From: Nitrospira sp.
Lineage (GTDB): Bacteria > Nitrospirota > Nitrospiria > Nitrospirales > Nitrospiraceae
Assembly: GCA_030123605.1 (NCBI GenBank)
Contig: CP126123.1
Span: 3,997,237-4,061,236, forward strand
DNA length: 64,000 nt
Direction of reading: 5' to 3'
The stretch's first letter is position 1; each line of letters begins with the position of its first letter. Below are positions 47,339 through 57,472 of this stretch, piece by piece. A model generated the notes under the pieces. That model saw only the letters and a program-made list of their open reading frames with translations, was not told the DNA's origin and searched no databases. Made by a program: the position numbers and the translations under genes.

Positions 47339-48793
47339 TTATCCCTTCCCATGGGAACGTTCCTTGAGGGCGTCGAGGCGGCGCCGGTCGAGCGTGACGT
47401 ACAGGGCCTTTTCCTGCGTGACCGTCACGGCGCCGGGTGCTTGACCTTTGGATTTGCGCACCCATTTCCGGCGCGTGTAGATGACCTCGCCCTTGCCGCT
47501 TTTTTTCAAGTCGCTATAGAGCAAGGCCAAGGTCGCGGCGTCGGTCAGCGTGTCAGGCGGCGGATCGGTTCCCTTTTCCAAACGGACGACGACATGGGAG
47601 CCGGGGACCCCGCGGGCATGTAGCCAGAGGTCCTCGCTCTTGGCGAGGTCGAACGTCAGGTCGTCGTTTTCACGGGCGTTGCGTCCGACGAAAATGTGAT
47701 GGCCGTCCGACGAGAGGAACCGTCGAAACGGACCGCGGCGTTCATCGGTTGCCGCCCGTCCACGCTCGATACGTCCCGTCGATCGTGTGGCGGTCCGCCC
47801 CTCATTGACCGGTGCCTGCCAGGTTCCGTTTTTGATGGCATCGAGTTCTGCCTGGACCTGCCGAGCCTCCGTTTCGATCGCCGCGAGGCGGGGAGTCACC
47901 TCACGTTGGGCCGTCACGAACTTTCGATACTTGGCGAAGTAGGCATCCATATTGGCCTGAGGTGTTTTCATGGGGTCGAGCGGAATCGTCAATTCGGGGA
48001 GTCGGTCGTCGTAATAATCCACCACCGTCACGGTCGTGAGTCCCTTCTTCAGCGATCCGAGACCTGCCTTCAACAGTTCGCCGTATCGTGCATAGGGCTC
48101 GTATCGTCCGGCCTGTTCGAGGTCTCGGCGGAGCGCTTCCATGCGGCGAAGGTGTCTCTTGAGGGTTTTTCGCAAGGCCGATTCCCGTTCCCGGAGTTGC
48201 GTCAGGTGAGACAGTTCCGCTTCGCGCTCACGGTACAGGTCCTCCAATTCGGCCGAGAAGGGAAAGGGATCGACGCCGGAGGGGGAATCCGCTGGAATGC
48301 CGGCCAGGTCTTTGGGGGCCGACCGTCCTGGTGCCGGAGTCGGCGCACGATACGGCTGGCCGATCCGTTCTTTATTGTGGCGAAGCGTGGCGAGTACCAG
48401 CGCTTCTCCGTCGAGAAACAGCAGGTCGGCTTTTCGTCCGAACAGTTCCGCAACCAGAGAAACCGGGCCGTCACGACTCGTGAGGTCCAGATGAACGATC
48501 CGGTCGCCTGTCACATGTCGAATCCCGTCGATGCGCGCACCTTGGATCCTCGCCCGTAACAATTGGCAGAAAGAGGGCGGGGTCGGTGGATTGACAAGGC
48601 TTCGGCGTACAAAGTGCAACCGGGCGGTCTCGTCGTGGACGGAACAGAGCAGCCGACGGGTATGGCCGGGGACACGAACCTCGAAGAGCACGACATCGGG
48701 AAGCGGCTGGAATATTTTTTGTATCCACCCTTCGGTCAGGGCCGGAGCCAGTTCCTGAACAATGGAACCAATTTCTGTCGCAGTCAGAGACAT
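47339..48793 (-). CDS. rqcH: NFACT/RqcH family protein
   Basis: 484 residues from the ATG at 48793. N-terminal NFACT-N (LTATEIGSIVQELAPAL...GRKADLLFLDGEALVLATLR in outline), a long helical coiled coil about 190-340, and the C-terminal NFACT-R/DUF814 domain (FLSSDGHHIFVGRNARENDDLTF...LWLHARGVPGSHVVVR in outline). RqcH binds stalled 50S subunits and adds C-terminal Ala tails. The protein is shorter than Bacillus RqcH (about 570). Confidence 0.9.
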   Translation of the reverse strand: MSLTATEIGSIVQELAPALTEGWIQKIFQPLPDVVLFEVRVPGHTRRLLCSVHDETARLHFVRRSLVNPPTPPSFCQLLRARIQGARIDGIRHVTGDRIVHLDLTSRDGPVSLVAELFGRKADLLFLDGEALVLATLRHNKERIGQPYRAPTPAPGRSAPKDLAGIPADSPSGVDPFPFSAELEDLYREREAELSHLTQLRERESALRKTLKRHLRRMEALRRDLEQAGRYEPYARYGELLKAGLGSLKKGLTTVTVVDYYDDRLPELTIPLDPMKTPQANMDAYFAKYRKFVTAQREVTPRLAAIETEARQVQAELDAIKNGTWQAPVNEGRTATRSTGRIERGRAATDERRGPFRRFLSSDGHHIFVGRNARENDDLTFDLAKSEDLWLHARGVPGSHVVVRLEKGTDPPPDTLTDAATLALLYSDLKKSGKGEVIYTRRKWVRKSKGQAPGAVTVTQEKALYVTLDRRRLDALKERSHGKG

Positions 48794-49078
48794 GTGGATG
48801 CCTGCCGCCCTCAGTCGGTTGGAACAGCCCGGCACCAAGATTCGGCCTGTCGGCCAGACCCAGGCTGATTTTTAGCAGAGATAGACGATTGTACCCATTT
48901 TTGTCGCATGAGACCAAGAAGCCCACAACCGGTCAATTTGCCGCGAGAGGATGTAGTTTGGTTCGGTTCATGCCGAGGCAAGGCAAGGGAACCGTATCGG
49001 CGTATCGGTGGCATCTACATTGCTTATTCCCAAACCCAGGCAGCCGATGAGTCGGCCACAGGGAAAGGGAGGCACTCC

Positions 49079-49306
49079 ATGACATGCACGCGATGTGAAG
49101 GACTGATGGTTTCGGACGATCTGATCGACCTTGAGGAGAGTTACCATCCTATGTGGCTGCGCGGGTATCGATGTATGAGTTGCGGCAACATCGTGGATAT
49201 GCTGATCCAGCGGCATCGGATGGTTCAGCACTCGCATCTCCGTCCGGTTGCCGCGGCTCCTCCGGAGAAGCCGGTTCTTTTCGATCTCATCAAATTGACA
49301 GCCTAG
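49079..49306 (+). CDS. Small zinc-ribbon protein
   Basis: 75 residues from the ATG at 49079, with GGGAGG 8 bp upstream; longer upstream frames look spurious. Two CXXC pairs (CTRCEG and CMSCGN) about 30 residues apart form a zinc ribbon. A basic segment (QRHRMVQHSHLRP) follows. The family is unknown; nucleic-acid or protein binding is plausible. A perfect GC hairpin follows immediately. Confidence 0.65.
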   Translation: MTCTRCEGLMVSDDLIDLEESYHPMWLRGYRCMSCGNIVDMLIQRHRMVQHSHLRPVAAAPPEKPVLFDLIKLTA

Positions 49307-49310
49307 GCAT

Positions 49311-49344
49311 GGCCCCGCGCAGCCGATACCGGTTGCGCGGGGCC
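49311..49344 (+). terminator. Hairpin after the zinc-ribbon gene
   Basis: 11-bp perfect stem GGCCCCGCGCA / TGCGCGGGGCC with a 12-nt loop, right after the stop codon. No clear T-run follows, so termination is uncertain. Bases 49345-49598 show nothing else. Confidence 0.5.
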
Positions 49345-49598
49345 CACCTGCAGAAGACGGACATCGTCGCGGGCGATCCTCCGGCCAGGTTCGCCCGCTC
49401 CGTCACGACCCCTGCTGTCACGTTCTGCCATAGCCTAACAAATATGTGACGCGATCCTCCAGCCTTTCTTCTCGGTCCTTCCGTTGATCACGTACTCACG
49501 TAGGTCGCCCTATTCACCCTGCTGCTCGCGCCTTGTCAGCCACAGGGCAGTCGCGTACAGTGCGCATGCGTCTGGTGAGCCTAAAAGGGAATGGGACG

Positions 49599-51146
49599 AT
49601 GACATTGCTTGATGCTCTGGTTCTCGACCGGCTGATGGGGGATTTTCGCCGATCCATGCGGGGGCTGCTGAGAGATCTCTGCCGGGATTTTGAGCGAAAC
49701 TATGTGGAAGCCGCCAGGGCCTTTGGGTTGCCGATCGAGTGGTTTCGCACGGTCGAGCGCTCGTTGGCAGCGGCCGACTATGCCCACTGGAAGGTCGTCG
49801 GCTGGATCGAATCGTTGAATGATCTGTTGTACTTCGTCGATCTTCTGGCCCAGGTGCGGCAGGAACGATCTCGTCGAAACATCGCCGAGCAACTCCAGGC
49901 GGAGTTCAAGGAGAAGTTCTATGAACATGGGTACGCCGATGACCTGTTTCCCAACGGCACGCCCGAACCTCGTCTGCTCCTGTCACGCCTCAGCGGACTC
50001 TGCCGCCGGTTGGCGCGGGAGGTGACGCAGGAATCTCTCTGCCTTGCCCCTCGACAGGCCTGTGAGTGGGTGACGACACAGGAGAGGAAGGCTTGGTCGG
50101 TGCCTTGCGACCTGAACGCGAATGTTGAGCGGGTCGAACTGCCGTATGTGTGCTCAGTGGGAACAGCCGATGTGTCCTACCGGGCGCCACATCCTGTTCG
50201 AGCCCTGCTCAAACAAACGGCGGGGCAGGCGACATTCCTGATCAAGGAATCAGGCATCGATCTGCTGGTCGGCGGACAGATTCACAGGATGGTCGAGTAC
50301 GGCGATCGGGAGGTGTGGCACTGGCGTCGTGTGGAACCGCTCTGTCTGCGGGAGACCCGATATGGAACCCTTCATCTTGGGCCGACCCTAATCTATGGAA
50401 AGGACAGGGCTCCGGTGGCAGTGCGGCAGACGAAGCCGGAGGTCGCAACACGCATGCGGCGCGCTCTGGCGGTCATTGCTGCCGCATGGCCGGAGGGCGA
50501 TCGACTCCTGGCGTTGCTGACCTCCCGGATCGTTCCGCTCAAAGCCTCCGGGGTGGTGAGCTTCAGCTATCGGCATCGTCCCGGCTTGTCCGTCATCAAT
50601 TGCTTCGACCGCGACCGGCTCGACCTGATCGACGATCTCATCCATGAGAACAGCCACCACCACCTCAATCTGCTGCTGCGGAAGGATGTACTGTATCGAC
50701 ACGATCATAACCAGGAGATCTTCTATTCACCATGGCGGCGTAGCCTGCGGCCGCTGAGGGGCATTCTCCATGCGACCTTCACGTTCACCATGGGAGCGTT
50801 GTTGTTCGAGCGGTTATCCGCATGGGGCGGTGGTCGAACAGGGCAGGGGCGATGGCGAAAGGCCGGTCTCAGCCTGCGCGATCTTCGCCGCGCCCGGTAC
50901 CGTTGTCTCGAAGAAATCGACTCGGTGCGCTATTCCCTCCAGGATCTCGACTACGCCGGTGGACATCTGAAATGGCTGACTCCCATGGGCAAGCAGGTGG
51001 TGGGGCAATTGGCTGAGGCGCTGGCGCAGGTCGAGGGCAGGATGCGGACGCATGAAACGGAGGTGAGCCGGTCGTCGTTCGGACCGGCTCTTCGCCGTCA
51101 CCGTGCTGAACTGGCGCGTGCCAGACAGACGTACGGCTTGATGTGA
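49599..51146 (+). CDS. HExxH-motif peptide beta-hydroxylase-like protein (aKG-HExxH family)
   Basis: 515 residues from the ATG at 49599 with AAAAGGGA 8 bp upstream; an ATG at 49533 is also in frame. The first 170 residues are helical. The C-terminal half carries IHENSHHHLNLLL, an HExxH with extra His, followed by EIFYSPWRRSLRPLRGILHATFTF. This HExxH...SPWR...RPL.G.LH layout is the hallmark of HExxH-domain proteins associated with RiPP modification (FxsB-type C-terminal domains and relatives). Some of these are 2OG-dependent peptide beta-hydroxylases. No YcaO, radical-SAM or precursor peptide is seen nearby. Function is inferred from the motif. Confidence 0.72.
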   Translation: MTLLDALVLDRLMGDFRRSMRGLLRDLCRDFERNYVEAARAFGLPIEWFRTVERSLAAADYAHWKVVGWIESLNDLLYFVDLLAQVRQERSRRNIAEQLQAEFKEKFYEHGYADDLFPNGTPEPRLLLSRLSGLCRRLAREVTQESLCLAPRQACEWVTTQERKAWSVPCDLNANVERVELPYVCSVGTADVSYRAPHPVRALLKQTAGQATFLIKESGIDLLVGGQIHRMVEYGDREVWHWRRVEPLCLRETRYGTLHLGPTLIYGKDRAPVAVRQTKPEVATRMRRALAVIAAAWPEGDRLLALLTSRIVPLKASGVVSFSYRHRPGLSVINCFDRDRLDLIDDLIHENSHHHLNLLLRKDVLYRHDHNQEIFYSPWRRSLRPLRGILHATFTFTMGALLFERLSAWGGGRTGQGRWRKAGLSLRDLRRARYRCLEEIDSVRYSLQDLDYAGGHLKWLTPMGKQVVGQLAEALAQVEGRMRTHETEVSRSSFGPALRRHRAELARARQTYGLM

Positions 51147-51186
51147 CCTGCGTCCCATCCCCATCCGGTTTTTCAACCCGTCCGAC

Positions 51187-51798
51187 CTATCGAGTTCTGC
51201 CGGCCTTCCTGGTTTTCCTGACCGTCTTGACCCGTTGAGCTGCTCGTCTCGTTGGCGGCTTTCTTGCGCTCGCGACCGGTTTGACCCTGACCAGGTAGGA
51301 ACCGATCTCCGGATCACCCATTTGAGGGCTGGCCGTGGGTCCTTCACTCTCGGTGTGTGATCCGGTGATAGTGAGGAGGCTGAGGAAGAGACGGATCGTC
51401 CCTAAGATTCTGGTCGGGACATCCGGTGGCGGCGCAGGCGGTTTCATGATGCCGCGGGTATTCACCACGGACGTCGAGGCGTGAAACGTCTTGCCGTTCA
51501 TGAGGTCTTGCAGGGTTTGAATCCCCTGGTGATTCTTGGCGTCGTTCGGAGAAGGCGTGTGGGCTGGCTCCGTCAATCCCTTCGTAATGTTGGCGTGGAG
51601 GCGCAGGTCGCTGATCTGCGCGCCGTCGGCATAGTGAAAACCGTGGGTAGTCGTGAATCCGCCGAATCCACCCATGACTTCGTTGTATGAGCGGCCGGCG
51701 GTCGCCGTGAGGTTCAACCATTGCAAGTTGGTGTCGGTATCGTAGGTGAGGAGTTGGTCTCCGCTGCCGGGAATGAGGTCTTGTTGAATCAGTGCCAC
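51187..51798 (-). CDS. Leaderless PEP-CTERM-style domain protein with basic tail
   Basis: 203 residues from a GTG at 51798, chosen because AAAGGAGGG lies 8 bp upstream. Residues about 9-66 (SGDQLLTYDTDTNLQWLNLT, then SYNEVMGGFGGF and GFHYADGAQISDL) match the conserved first domain of many exported PEP-CTERM proteins. Here no signal peptide and no C-terminal anchor exist. The tail (about 175-203) is Lys/Arg-rich. It is convergent with the HExxH gene, ending 40 bp from it. Confidence 0.6.
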   Translation of the reverse strand: MALIQQDLIPGSGDQLLTYDTDTNLQWLNLTATAGRSYNEVMGGFGGFTTTHGFHYADGAQISDLRLHANITKGLTEPAHTPSPNDAKNHQGIQTLQDLMNGKTFHASTSVVNTRGIMKPPAPPPDVPTRILGTIRLFLSLLTITGSHTESEGPTASPQMGDPEIGSYLVRVKPVASARKPPTRRAAQRVKTVRKTRKAGRTR

Positions 51799-54075: not shown

Positions 54076-54303
54076 GTGATTAAAACGTTGAAGCGACATG
54101 GAAATGGCATGGTCCTGGTCATCGAAAAGCCGATGACGGAAGCGCTCGGTATCACGGAAGAGATGCCGCTCCAAGTGACGGTGAATGGAAATGCGCTGGT
54201 CGTCACACTGGCGAATGTGGGCGTCGGTCCTGAGCGCATGAAAGGTGCCGTCAAAGAATTGCGCAAACGCTACGGGCCGATGTTAAAGCGGCTGGCGGAT
54301 TGA
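54076..54303 (+). CDS. AbrB/MazE-type antitoxin
   Basis: 75 residues from a GTG at 54076 with GAGAGG upstream. The swapped-hairpin AbrB pattern is visible: KTLKRHGNGMVLVIEKPMTEALGI in outline, followed by LQVTVNGNALVV. The C-terminal half (ERMKGAVKELRKRYGPMLKRL) would be the toxin-binding tail. It pairs with the Doc-type toxin 3 bp downstream, in place of the Phd antitoxin found beside phage P1 Doc. Confidence 0.82.
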   Translation: MIKTLKRHGNGMVLVIEKPMTEALGITEEMPLQVTVNGNALVVTLANVGVGPERMKGAVKELRKRYGPMLKRLAD

Positions 54304-54306
54304 CCG

Positions 54307-54702
54307 GTGAAAGAATGCATCTTTCTCAGTGTGAAAGATGTGCTGTTTCTCCAAGGCGATACGATTGGAGTCGACGGAGGCTTGCCCGGAATAAGAGACC
54401 ATGGTTTGTTGGACGCGGCGGTTGCGATGCCTCGCCAGCAATTCGGCGGTGACTATCTCCATAAAGAGATCGCCGCGATGGGCGCGGCGGATCTCTTCCA
54501 TCTCGCGCAGAATCATCCCTTCGTGGACGGGAATAAACGGACTGCAGTGCTGGCGGCGCTGGTGTTCCTTCATGTCAACGGCGTCGAGACATTGCCCCCT
54601 CCTCAGGCGCTGGAGGTCGTGACTCGCCAGGTTGCCGGAGGGGAATTGAGCAAGGACGCCTTGACGCAGTGGCTACGGAGGGAGATCGGGAAGAAACGGT
54701 GA
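54307..54702 (+). CDS. doc: Doc/Fic-type toxin
   Basis: 131 residues from a GTG at 54307. The Fic motif HPFVDGNKRTA is complete (HxFxxGNKRT). The N-terminal LSVKDVLFLQGDTIGVDGGLPG and IRDHGLLDAAVAMP match Doc proteins. Doc phosphorylates EF-Tu with ATP. The gene ends 9 bp before the distal CRISPR repeat, so the two units abut. Confidence 0.93.
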   Translation: MKECIFLSVKDVLFLQGDTIGVDGGLPGIRDHGLLDAAVAMPRQQFGGDYLHKEIAAMGAADLFHLAQNHPFVDGNKRTAVLAALVFLHVNGVETLPPPQALEVVTRQVAGGELSKDALTQWLRREIGKKR

Positions 54703-54711
54703 ACGTGGGAT

Positions 54712-57472
54712 GTTTCAATCCTCGCCCTTCCCGAAGGAAGGGCGCTACTATGAGTTGTCGAGGGAGAGGGAGTATATACCAATGTTTCAATCCTCGCCCT
54801 TCCCGAAGGAAGGGCGCTACGGAACACCACTCGGGCGAGGAGGGATGAGACATGTTTCAATCCTCGCCCTTCCCGAAGGAAGGGCGCTACTTGCCAGCGG
54901 TCGGAGCCCACTCGAAGTCATGATGTTTCAATCCTCGCCCTTCCCGAAGGAAGGGCGCTACTAAAACGCTCAAACCTCGCTCCTATCAACCAATTGTTTC
55001 AATCCTCGCCCTTCCCGAAGGAAGGGCGCTACAGCGCCGGACATGCGAGAAAGCAACCCGTAATGGCGTTTCAATCCTCGCCCTTCCCGAAGGAAGGGCG
55101 CTACCGCAGCCAACAAACTGCCTGCCGAAAAATCGGCGGTTTCAATCCTCGCCCTTCCCGAAGGAAGGGCGCTACGCAGCACCGGGCGACTTGTGACCCC
55201 GGCGATCAGCGTTTCAATCCTCGCCCTTCCCGAAGGAAGGGCGCTACGAAACGGCGGAGGTGCAGGACCGTGCCTTGTGGACGTTTCAATCCTCGCCCTT
55301 CCCGAAGGAAGGGCGCTACTGCACGCCGCGTGGGCAGTCGGCGATCTGGTATGTGTTTCAATCCTCGCCCTTCCCGAAGGAAGGGCGCTACCGCCGGCGG
55401 CGTCGACATTCAGAACGATCTGTCGGTTTCAATCCTCGCCCTTCCCGAAGGAAGGGCGCTACTAGGTGCCAGCCTGCGCGGTGAGGCGGCTCGATCGTTT
55501 CAATCCTCGCCCTTCCCGAAGGAAGGGCGCTACGCACAGGAGTTACAGCCATGATCAGGACGGCGATGGTTTCAATCCTCGCCCTTCCCGAAGGAAGGGC
55601 GCTACCCGCAGCACGCGGCCATCGGCCAGATAATTCGCCGGTTTCAATCCTCGCCCTTCCCGAAGGAAGGGCGCTACGGAAGAGTCATAGCTCGATCGAC
55701 GAGCCGGCGGTGTTTCAATCCTCGCCCTTCCCGAAGGAAGGGCGCTACGGACACGTCCGTGAAACGCTCACCTGGTCCTATGCGGTTTCAATCCTCGCCC
55801 TTCCCGAAGGAAGGGCGCTACACTGCCGCCATCACCACCCTCGATGGCACCGCCCGTTTCAATCCTCGCCCTTCCCGAAGGAAGGGCGCTACTTGCCAGC
55901 GGTCGGAGCCCACTCGAAGTCATGATGTTTCAATCCTCGCCCTTCCCGAAGGAAGGGCGCTACTGTCGCGATTGCCACCTCGCCAACAGCCAGTTGAGGT
56001 TTCAATCCTCGCCCTTCCCGAAGGAAGGGCGCTACGTTGGGTACTCCGACCGCTCCCACGTGGAACAATGTGTTTCAATCCTCGCCCTTCCCGAAGGAAG
56101 GGCGCTACTTCGGGCAGCGCGGCTATGCCGGCGCCAAGTGGTGGTTTCAATCCTCGCCCTTCCCGAAGGAAGGGCGCTACGCCTGGATCGACATTCAATC
56201 GCTGCATCAAGACTGGTTTCAATCCTCGCCCTTCCCGAAGGAAGGGCGCTACATCCGGCGGGGCGAAACTCTGCCGGGAGATAGTCGAGTTTCAATCCTC
56301 GCCCTTCCCGAAGGAAGGGCGCTACATCCGGCGGGGCGAAACTCTGCCGGGAGATAGTCGAGTTTCAATCCTCGCCCTTCCCGAAGGAAGGGCGCTACGA
56401 CGAGCTGGGAGCCGAGGCCGCCGAACGCGACCTGTTTCAATCCTCGCCCTTCCCGAAGGAAGGGCGCTACGAGTGATTCAGGCGTCAACGAGAACCAGCG
56501 CATAGTTTCAATCCTCGCCCTTCCCGAAGGAAGGGCGCTACCGGTCGGATTGGTGGTGCTGCCATCGCGAAACGCGTTTCAATCCTCGCCCTTCCCGAAG
56601 GAAGGGCGCTACGAGAGGTTCAGGGCGGCATGGGCGCCGCGATTGAGTTTCAATCCTCGCCCTTCCCGAAGGAAGGGCGCTACCCCGGCGCGACCGTTGC
56701 TGAGACGAACCGATCCGGTTTCAATCCTCGCCCTTCCCGAAGGAAGGGCGCTACAGAGGACAGGCGATTAGCTCAGCGCGCTGTGGATGTTTCAATCCTC
56801 GCCCTTCCCGAAGGAAGGGCGCTACGATTAAACCCCTCCGGGCCGTAATCGACTTTCAACGTTTCAATCCTCGCCCTTCCCGAAGGAAGGGCGCTACGTT
56901 GGGACGGGATCAACTGGGACCGATGCACAAAGGGTTTCAATCCTCGCCCTTCCCGAAGGAAGGGCGCTACGTCACGCTCTCGCTCGAACAGCATGCCCAA
57001 TACCTGTTTCAATCCTCGCCCTTCCCGAAGGAAGGGCGCTACGGGGCGAACACTCGGGCGAGATAGAGGACATCATGTTTCAATCCTCGCCCTTCCCGAA
57101 GGAAGGGCGCTACTTGCCAGCGGTCGGAGCCCACTCGAAGTCATGATGTTTCAATCCTCGCCCTTCCCGAAGGAAGGGCGCTACCGCCGCCATTGGGCGG
57201 GCGCACGATGGTGCTCGCGTTTCAATCCTCGCCCTTCCCGAAGGAAGGGCGCTACTACTGCCCACCGTCGGCGTGTTGATCAACATGGGTGTGTTTCAAT
57301 CCTCGCCCTTCCCGAAGGAAGGGCGCTACCGCGCGGCGTGCAGCAGACCACGAGTGCGGCCAAGTTTCAATCCTCGCCCTTCCCGAAGGAAGGGCGCTAC
57401 GCCGCAATTTGTGGATGCGTGTCGAGGATGGCACTGTTTCAATCCTCGCCCTTCCCGAAGGAAGGGCGCTAC
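54712..57472 (-). CRISPR. Type I-C CRISPR array, 39 repeats and 38 spacers
   Basis: Repeats are 37 nt. On the plus strand each starts GTTTCAATCC and ends GGGCGCTAC, the reverse of the usual ...ATTGAAAC end. Transcription is therefore leftward, from the leader beside cas2. All 39 copies look identical by eye, including the distal one at 54712-54748. The crRNA strand has a 9-bp stem CGCCCTTCC/GGAAGGGCG capped by TTCG, then an 11-nt handle AGGATTGAAAC, as expected for Cas5c processing. Spacers are 33-37 nt. One spacer occurs three times (54891-54924, 55893-55926, 57114-57147). Another is tandem (56253-56288 and 56326-56361). Confidence 0.99.

Follow-up and report, generated by a model that had tools for sequence, protein, structure and literature searches.

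Genes and features of the locus

The window analysed here is a stretch of 64,000 nucleotides from Nitrospira sp. (GenBank assembly GCA_030123605.1, contig CP126123.1), and the host genome is a single contig of 4.3 Mb that contains only one HExxH gene. This gene, together with a convergent gene that faces it and the features upstream, makes up the locus under study (Table 1). A preliminary description of the window had pointed to two converging open reading frames here, and both were found to be intact. The start codon of the HExxH gene was checked, and its product carries all three stretches of the signature attributed to it earlier (HENSHH...YSPWR...RPLRGILH). The HExxH motif occupies residues 349-353 counted from the ATG, or 348-352 when numbering begins at codon 2, as in the rest of this text. 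Ahead of the start codon of the facing gene, a AAAGGAGGG-like ribosome-binding site could be read by eye.

Table 1. Positions of the genes and regulatory features around the HExxH gene in the window
Feature	Position	Strand	Remarks
RqcH/NFACT-type gene	47339..48799	-	PF05833, E 2.2e-55; divergent conserved neighbour
Zinc-ribbon protein gene	49079..49306	+	75 aa; conserved gene upstream of HExxH, with rqcH on its other side
G+C-rich inverted repeat CCCCGCGCA...TGCGCGGGG	49313..49342	+	Terminator-like stem without T-run, just 3' of the zinc-ribbon gene
Sigma-70-like promoter of the HExxH gene	49533..49561	+	TTGTCA-17 nt-TACAGT; 37 nt from promoter end to ATG
HExxH gene, aKG-HExxH-type peptide/protein hydroxylase-like	49599..51146	+	515 aa; ATG at 49599, stop ends 51146
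Facing gene, leaderless, PEP-CTERM-protein-like N-terminal domain and basic tail	51187..51798	-	203 aa; GTG start at 51798, stop at 51187; part-time neighbour

Compared pairwise with the window copy (NG86), the HExxH gene of 10 relatives had dN/dS values of 0.10-0.17, and the facing gene of 8 relatives had values of 0.06-0.12. Since the ratio is low in each, both genes are real and under purifying selection. Searches of plasmid records returned no match to either protein, and no paper on the Nitrospira HExxH gene appeared among those listed by literature searches.

The HExxH protein belongs to the aKG-HExxH family

The HExxH protein matches the NCBIfam model of aKG-HExxH-type peptide beta-hydroxylases (TIGR04267) with 74.1 bits (E 1.3e-20; cut-off 40), and no Pfam family matches it over the cut-off. 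A sequence search of the PDB retrieved only ChlH (8s5f) and SjiH (22nu/22ob). An AlphaFold2 model built from the window protein and 22 natural relatives reached a pLDDT of 87.5 and a pTM of 0.86, with values below 50 in the loop 369-380, which bears part of the SPWR motif. When this model was submitted to Foldseek, 22ob ranked at the top (E 2.6e-8) and 8s5f second (1e-6), and the next, unrelated match had an E value of 0.48. VIA-align gave a Z score of 22.1 against ChlH (291 residues, 3.6 A, 20% identity) and 20.6 against SjiH (366 residues, 4.7 A); the third row, at Z 10.3, consisted of helical bundles. Among the matches listed no further 2OG-oxygenase fold was seen, which does not imply its absence. 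The profile score over the curated cut-off, the PW..RP..G pattern following HExxH and the ChlH fold of the predicted model all indicate membership, and the protein thus belongs to the aKG-HExxH domain family and has a predicted ChlH/SjiH-like fold. The link to peptide modification proposed from the signature is borne out at this level by the family model and by ChlH and SjiH as best matches, and the fold, whose lack had been named in advance as evidence against the pair, is found in the predicted model.

The residues of the signature are strongly conserved. H348, E349, H352, P377, W378, R379, R383, P384 and G387 are invariant in all 23 aligned sequences, the tyrosine of YSPWR is replaced by F in one sequence (22/23 conserved), and the histidine of ILH by Q in one (22/23). 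When four shorter members from the same phylum (L051, L052, L053 and L055) were added, HExxH, PW, RP and G were still invariant, and R379 varied among the four, two of which have PWQ. Because the position of the ILH histidine is occupied by Q in SjiH and by D in L053, this residue is not a safe choice for the third metal ligand. Another candidate is E403, which is invariant in the 23 aligned sequences and lost in the four shorter members.

ChlH, the HExxH domain of ChlBH from Chlorogloeopsis, shares domain family and fold with the window protein, and HExxH, SPWR, LRP and G(I/L)LHA align between the two. According to the available text of the source, ChlH forms part of a fusion with a radical SAM cyclophane synthase and has a RiPP precursor as its substrate (PMC12636437), whereas the window protein is solitary. 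The window protein is also longer: it has additional helices at the C-terminus and a stretch at about residues 198-234 that some relatives lack. SjiH, the best Foldseek match, gives the longest alignment; it was deposited under the molecule name "radical SAM core domain-containing protein", and a literature search found no paper on it. PflC/PosC, PesO and BpmH/BipH are further hydroxylases of the same domain family, and in the accessible parts of the reports each has its place in a RiPP cluster that includes a precursor gene (PMC12636437, PMC13060819, PMC12707348), while no such genes were recognised near the window HExxH gene. Within the phylum, the shorter mod_HExxH proteins share the PW..RP..G motif and differ in length (about 300 aa vs 515 aa). 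TIGR04267 matches the three that were scanned (L051, L052 and L053) over the cut-off, and L055 was aligned only. L051, L052 and L055 lie in families of the phylum other than that of the host.

A near-universal gene of the host family

The host family, taken as Nitrospiraceae by inference, was sampled with 175 genomes from 22 genera, 114 of them of high quality. With the window protein as query, the HExxH gene was detected in 160 of the 175 genomes, in 112 of the 114 high-quality ones and in all 22 genera. Among genomes at least 95% complete, the TIGR04267 model matched 87 of 90, and 85 of these 87 had one match. In a draw of 395 genomes from the host's own phylum, the range covered by the alignment-based search, 112 matched: 108 belong to the family, and the other four, from the order or class, match weakly and in the domain only. 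Two family genomes in this draw were without the gene (counted from the ordered list). By these sequence comparisons, the full-length HExxH form is confined to the host family within its phylum. A search of genome contigs with short peptide patterns from the window protein gave 33 loci, all from records labelled Nitrospira, Nitrospirae or Nitrospiraceae. One of the related loci is that of Candidatus Nitrospira defluvii.

Protein distances of HExxH and RqcH were correlated over 26 loci (Mantel rho 0.82, with none of 2000 permutations as high) and among the 13 closest loci (rho 0.70), which agrees with the expectation of vertical descent. As judged from distribution and distances, the HExxH gene is vertically inherited, near-universal and nearly always single-copy in this family of Nitrospira relatives.

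Transcription and conserved neighbourhood

The promoter-like sequence upstream of the HExxH gene was found by a scan that is not significant by itself (1 found vs 1.3 expected), and its support comes from conservation in two lineages. In the ~70% clade, TTGTCA-17-TACAGT is kept in 11 of 11 aligned loci, with TAGAGT as the second hexamer in some. In the ~55% identical clade, 10 of 11 aligned loci have TTGCAG and then TACAGT or TAGAGT, the exception (L015) missing two bases of the second hexamer; in one locus of this clade (L013) the spacer is 17 nt and the distance to the ATG 36 nt. The inverted repeat that parts the zinc-ribbon gene from the HExxH gene is likewise conserved in the locus alignment, and a terminator scan that requires a T-run did not call it. 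With a conserved hairpin and a conserved promoter in front of it, the HExxH gene most likely forms its own transcription unit.

Several candidates for a transcriptional partner or a shared control were set aside. The zinc-ribbon gene is separated from the HExxH gene by the hairpin and the promoter, and the same genome has at least four more zinc-ribbon paralogues at E <1e-4. A lipoprotein-like gene that directly precedes the HExxH gene in the ~55% clade is not upstream in the window's clade, and in L013 the promoter intervenes. A regulon with a common promoter motif was rejected too, as the motif has a single site in the host genome at up to 3 mismatches (reversed control, 0).

RqcH is the most frequent neighbour of the HExxH gene, lying within 6 kb in 26 of the 37 loci that have 4 kb or more of upstream sequence and near the gene in 26 of 34 loci of a second set. 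Besides RqcH, the recurrent neighbours comprise zinc-ribbon, amino-acid permease, PKD-domain and multicopper-oxidase-like genes, plus the lipoprotein-like gene in one clade, and further neighbours in the window are of ABC/MacB type. NCBIfam TIGR03479, used to look for a link to nitrite oxidoreductase, matched in 90 of 90 genomes, never over the cut-off, and in 11 of 14 controls, so that its matches are not specific.

Among the conserved neighbours and the scanned ORFs near the HExxH gene, no RiPP precursor or maturation gene was recognised, in line with what had been said of the locus before. Such partners can be recognised when present: in L051, from another family of the same order, the short HExxH gene adjoins a gene with a 245-bit match to NCBIfam YhhC, a type of cyclophane-peptide oxygenase.

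The short mod_HExxH genes have neighbours of their own. Those of L051 and L052 adjoin PtuB-like HNH genes (best PADLOC E values 2.1e-89 and 4.2e-74), and a similar-looking ORF stands beside that of L055. The YhhC-type 2OG oxygenase gene of L051 lies in the same region (366-2577), and it is possible that a locus of this type represents a RiPP cluster adjoining a defence-type nuclease.

The facing gene

The protein encoded by the facing gene had been described as PEP-CTERM-style, with neither signal nor anchor, and the second part of this description agrees with our results. It has no hydrophobic N-terminus (Kyte-Doolittle means over 19 residues peak at 0.39 within the first 40 residues), so that on hydropathy the signal peptide of PEP-CTERM exported proteins is not seen. 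At its C-terminus, where no NCBIfam match to a PEP-CTERM anchor was obtained at E values up to 1, there is a basic tail in place of the anchor. The label itself is reasonable but based on resemblance: one relative (L056) has a similar motif of ~60 residues towards the C-terminus of a 584-aa ORF. No NCBIfam or Pfam family matches the protein at or above the cut-off, there is no PDB or Pfam relative at a useful sequence score, and a predicted model reached a pLDDT of only 61.7.

The gene is present in 32 of the 175 family genomes (vs 160 for the HExxH gene), in 27 of the 114 high-quality ones and in 6 of the 22 genera; in a phylum sample, it was found in 18 of 295 genomes, all within the host family. 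Of nine aligned copies, four have a long basic tail, one has a partial tail and four have none. The host genome contains a second copy of this type (L035), which is 47% identical, leaderless and basic-tailed, and which has no HExxH neighbour because the genome has a single HExxH gene. Further paralogues, too, are built in this way and have no HExxH gene next to them.

Do the two genes form a modification pair?

The preliminary description suggested that the HExxH enzyme and its convergent neighbour might be a new modification pair, the facing protein being the substrate, and it asked for a check of co-occurrence across genomes, in which genes that are not neighbours elsewhere would count against the pair. 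By coordinate comparison, the two genes are convergent and adjacent in 14 of the 160 genomes with the HExxH gene. All of these belong to the window's genus (14 of 27 HExxH-bearing genomes), with none among 133 in other genera, so the two genes are largely not neighbours elsewhere. Among 34 loci, the window included, nine have the facing gene next to the HExxH gene, although some contigs end early. The idea that the enzyme hydroxylates this leaderless protein, perhaps on its basic tail, can draw on the retention of adjacency within one genus at a synonymous divergence around or above 1, on the strong purifying selection on the facing gene and on its orientation, which is always convergent where the two are adjacent. 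The RqcH neighbourhood is kept over the same distances as well, which suggests regional synteny. Moreover, the two genes share no operon because they converge, one adjacent copy (G022) shares only about 42% identity and is interrupted by an in-frame stop, and with a variable tail, found also in non-adjacent paralogues, and with paralogues lying away from any HExxH gene, the facing-protein family is not tied to the enzyme. We therefore dropped the facing gene as the source of the substrate, in view of the rare adjacency, the unconserved tail and the lone paralogues, and leave this reading only a very slight probability. The locus is also a caution that adjacency is a poor guide to substrate.

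Proposed function of the HExxH protein

In the available text of the published work, members of the aKG-HExxH family hydroxylate the side chains of peptides with O2, 2-oxoglutarate and Fe(II) held on the HExxH motif (PMC12636437, PMC13060819, PMC12707348), and the residues hydroxylated by the characterised Fe/2OG relatives include His, Asp, Gln and Pro (PMC12636437, PMC13060819). By homology with them, we infer the metal, the cosubstrate, the reaction and the substrate class of the window enzyme. The reading that we prefer, and consider probable with some reserve, is that of a solitary, vertically inherited Fe(II)/2-oxoglutarate-dependent aKG-HExxH hydroxylase of a peptide or protein, with its substrate encoded elsewhere in the genome. 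In such an enzyme, the HExxH histidines would hold one Fe(II), 2-oxoglutarate would sit beside it, and the conserved PWR...RP segment would belong to the same pocket; O2 would be split and a hydroxyl placed on an amino-acid side chain of the peptide or protein, probably on the beta carbon. The substrate would most likely be an endogenous protein or peptide from elsewhere in the genome rather than the product of the facing gene, since near-universality and lone transcription favour such a target; no candidate for it emerged from the analysis.

A small RiPP-like peptide from another place in the genome seems to us an unlikely target, even though the family members with published activities act, in the accessible parts of the sources, in RiPP pathways (PMC12636437, PMC13060819, PMC12707348). 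One MNIO-family match over the cut-off does exist at another place in the host genome (G000:C1:3343080), but a search of this genome for NHLP leaders, run without a positive control, gave no match. The HExxH gene is near-universal, single-copy and vertically inherited, a pattern that is unusual for a RiPP tailoring enzyme. Still less probable is a zincin-type metallopeptidase or other peptide-cleaving enzyme in place of an oxygenase. HExxH and an invariant downstream glutamate (E403) are both present, M1 aminopeptidases and LTA4 hydrolase match the model weakly (Z about 6-7), and PflC, from the same family, is described as also hydrolysing peptides that are without its leader (PMC12636437), which makes proteolysis by the HExxH protein possible. 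However, ChlH, a 2OG oxygenase, and SjiH rank far above the peptidases in both sequence and fold, and the family-typical PW..RP..G motif is in place. A role in ribosome quality control or translation, in which the enzyme would work alongside the divergent RqcH or act on RqcH tails, has hardly any likelihood in our judgement. It would account for RqcH as the commonest neighbour, but RqcH is divergent, the HExxH gene has its own promoter, 11 of the 37 loci with enough upstream sequence are without RqcH nearby (4 of them from genomes chosen as distant genera), and neighbourhood by itself is weak evidence in a syntenic region.

The preferred reading of a solitary hydroxylase can be carried one step further, tentatively and with more doubt than conviction: the protein may be a housekeeping aKG-HExxH oxygenase, outside RiPP biosynthesis, which hydroxylates a core cellular protein throughout the nitrifier family. 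The aKG-HExxH enzymes treated in the accessible text of the reports are all inside RiPP clusters (PMC12636437, PMC13060819, PMC12707348). If the proposal is true, this would be a bacterial protein hydroxylase of a fold otherwise described there in peptide natural-product pathways, and a solitary, vertically inherited and near-universal copy in a major nitrifying lineage suggests a cellular role for the fold.

Other features of the window and of related loci

In one related locus (L025, 7508-9022), the C-terminal end of the HExxH gene is partly duplicated downstream of a 382-aa ATPase-like ORF, an arrangement that resembles an insertion with target duplication. Downstream in the window (54076-54702), a small gene of 75 aa precedes a toxin gene of the death-on-curing (Doc) family (TIGR01550, 49.9 bits), and relatives of this pair occur as variable cargo near some HExxH loci. 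A CRISPR-type array extends over 54712-57400 and beyond, with a 37-nt repeat (GTTTCAATCCTCGCCC...GCGCTAC), spacers of about 34-36 nt and 39 copies in one repeat family. Two repeat-spacer units in it (56216-56288 and 56289-56361) are exact copies of each other, and a single spacer sequence occurs at 54854, 55856 and 57077.
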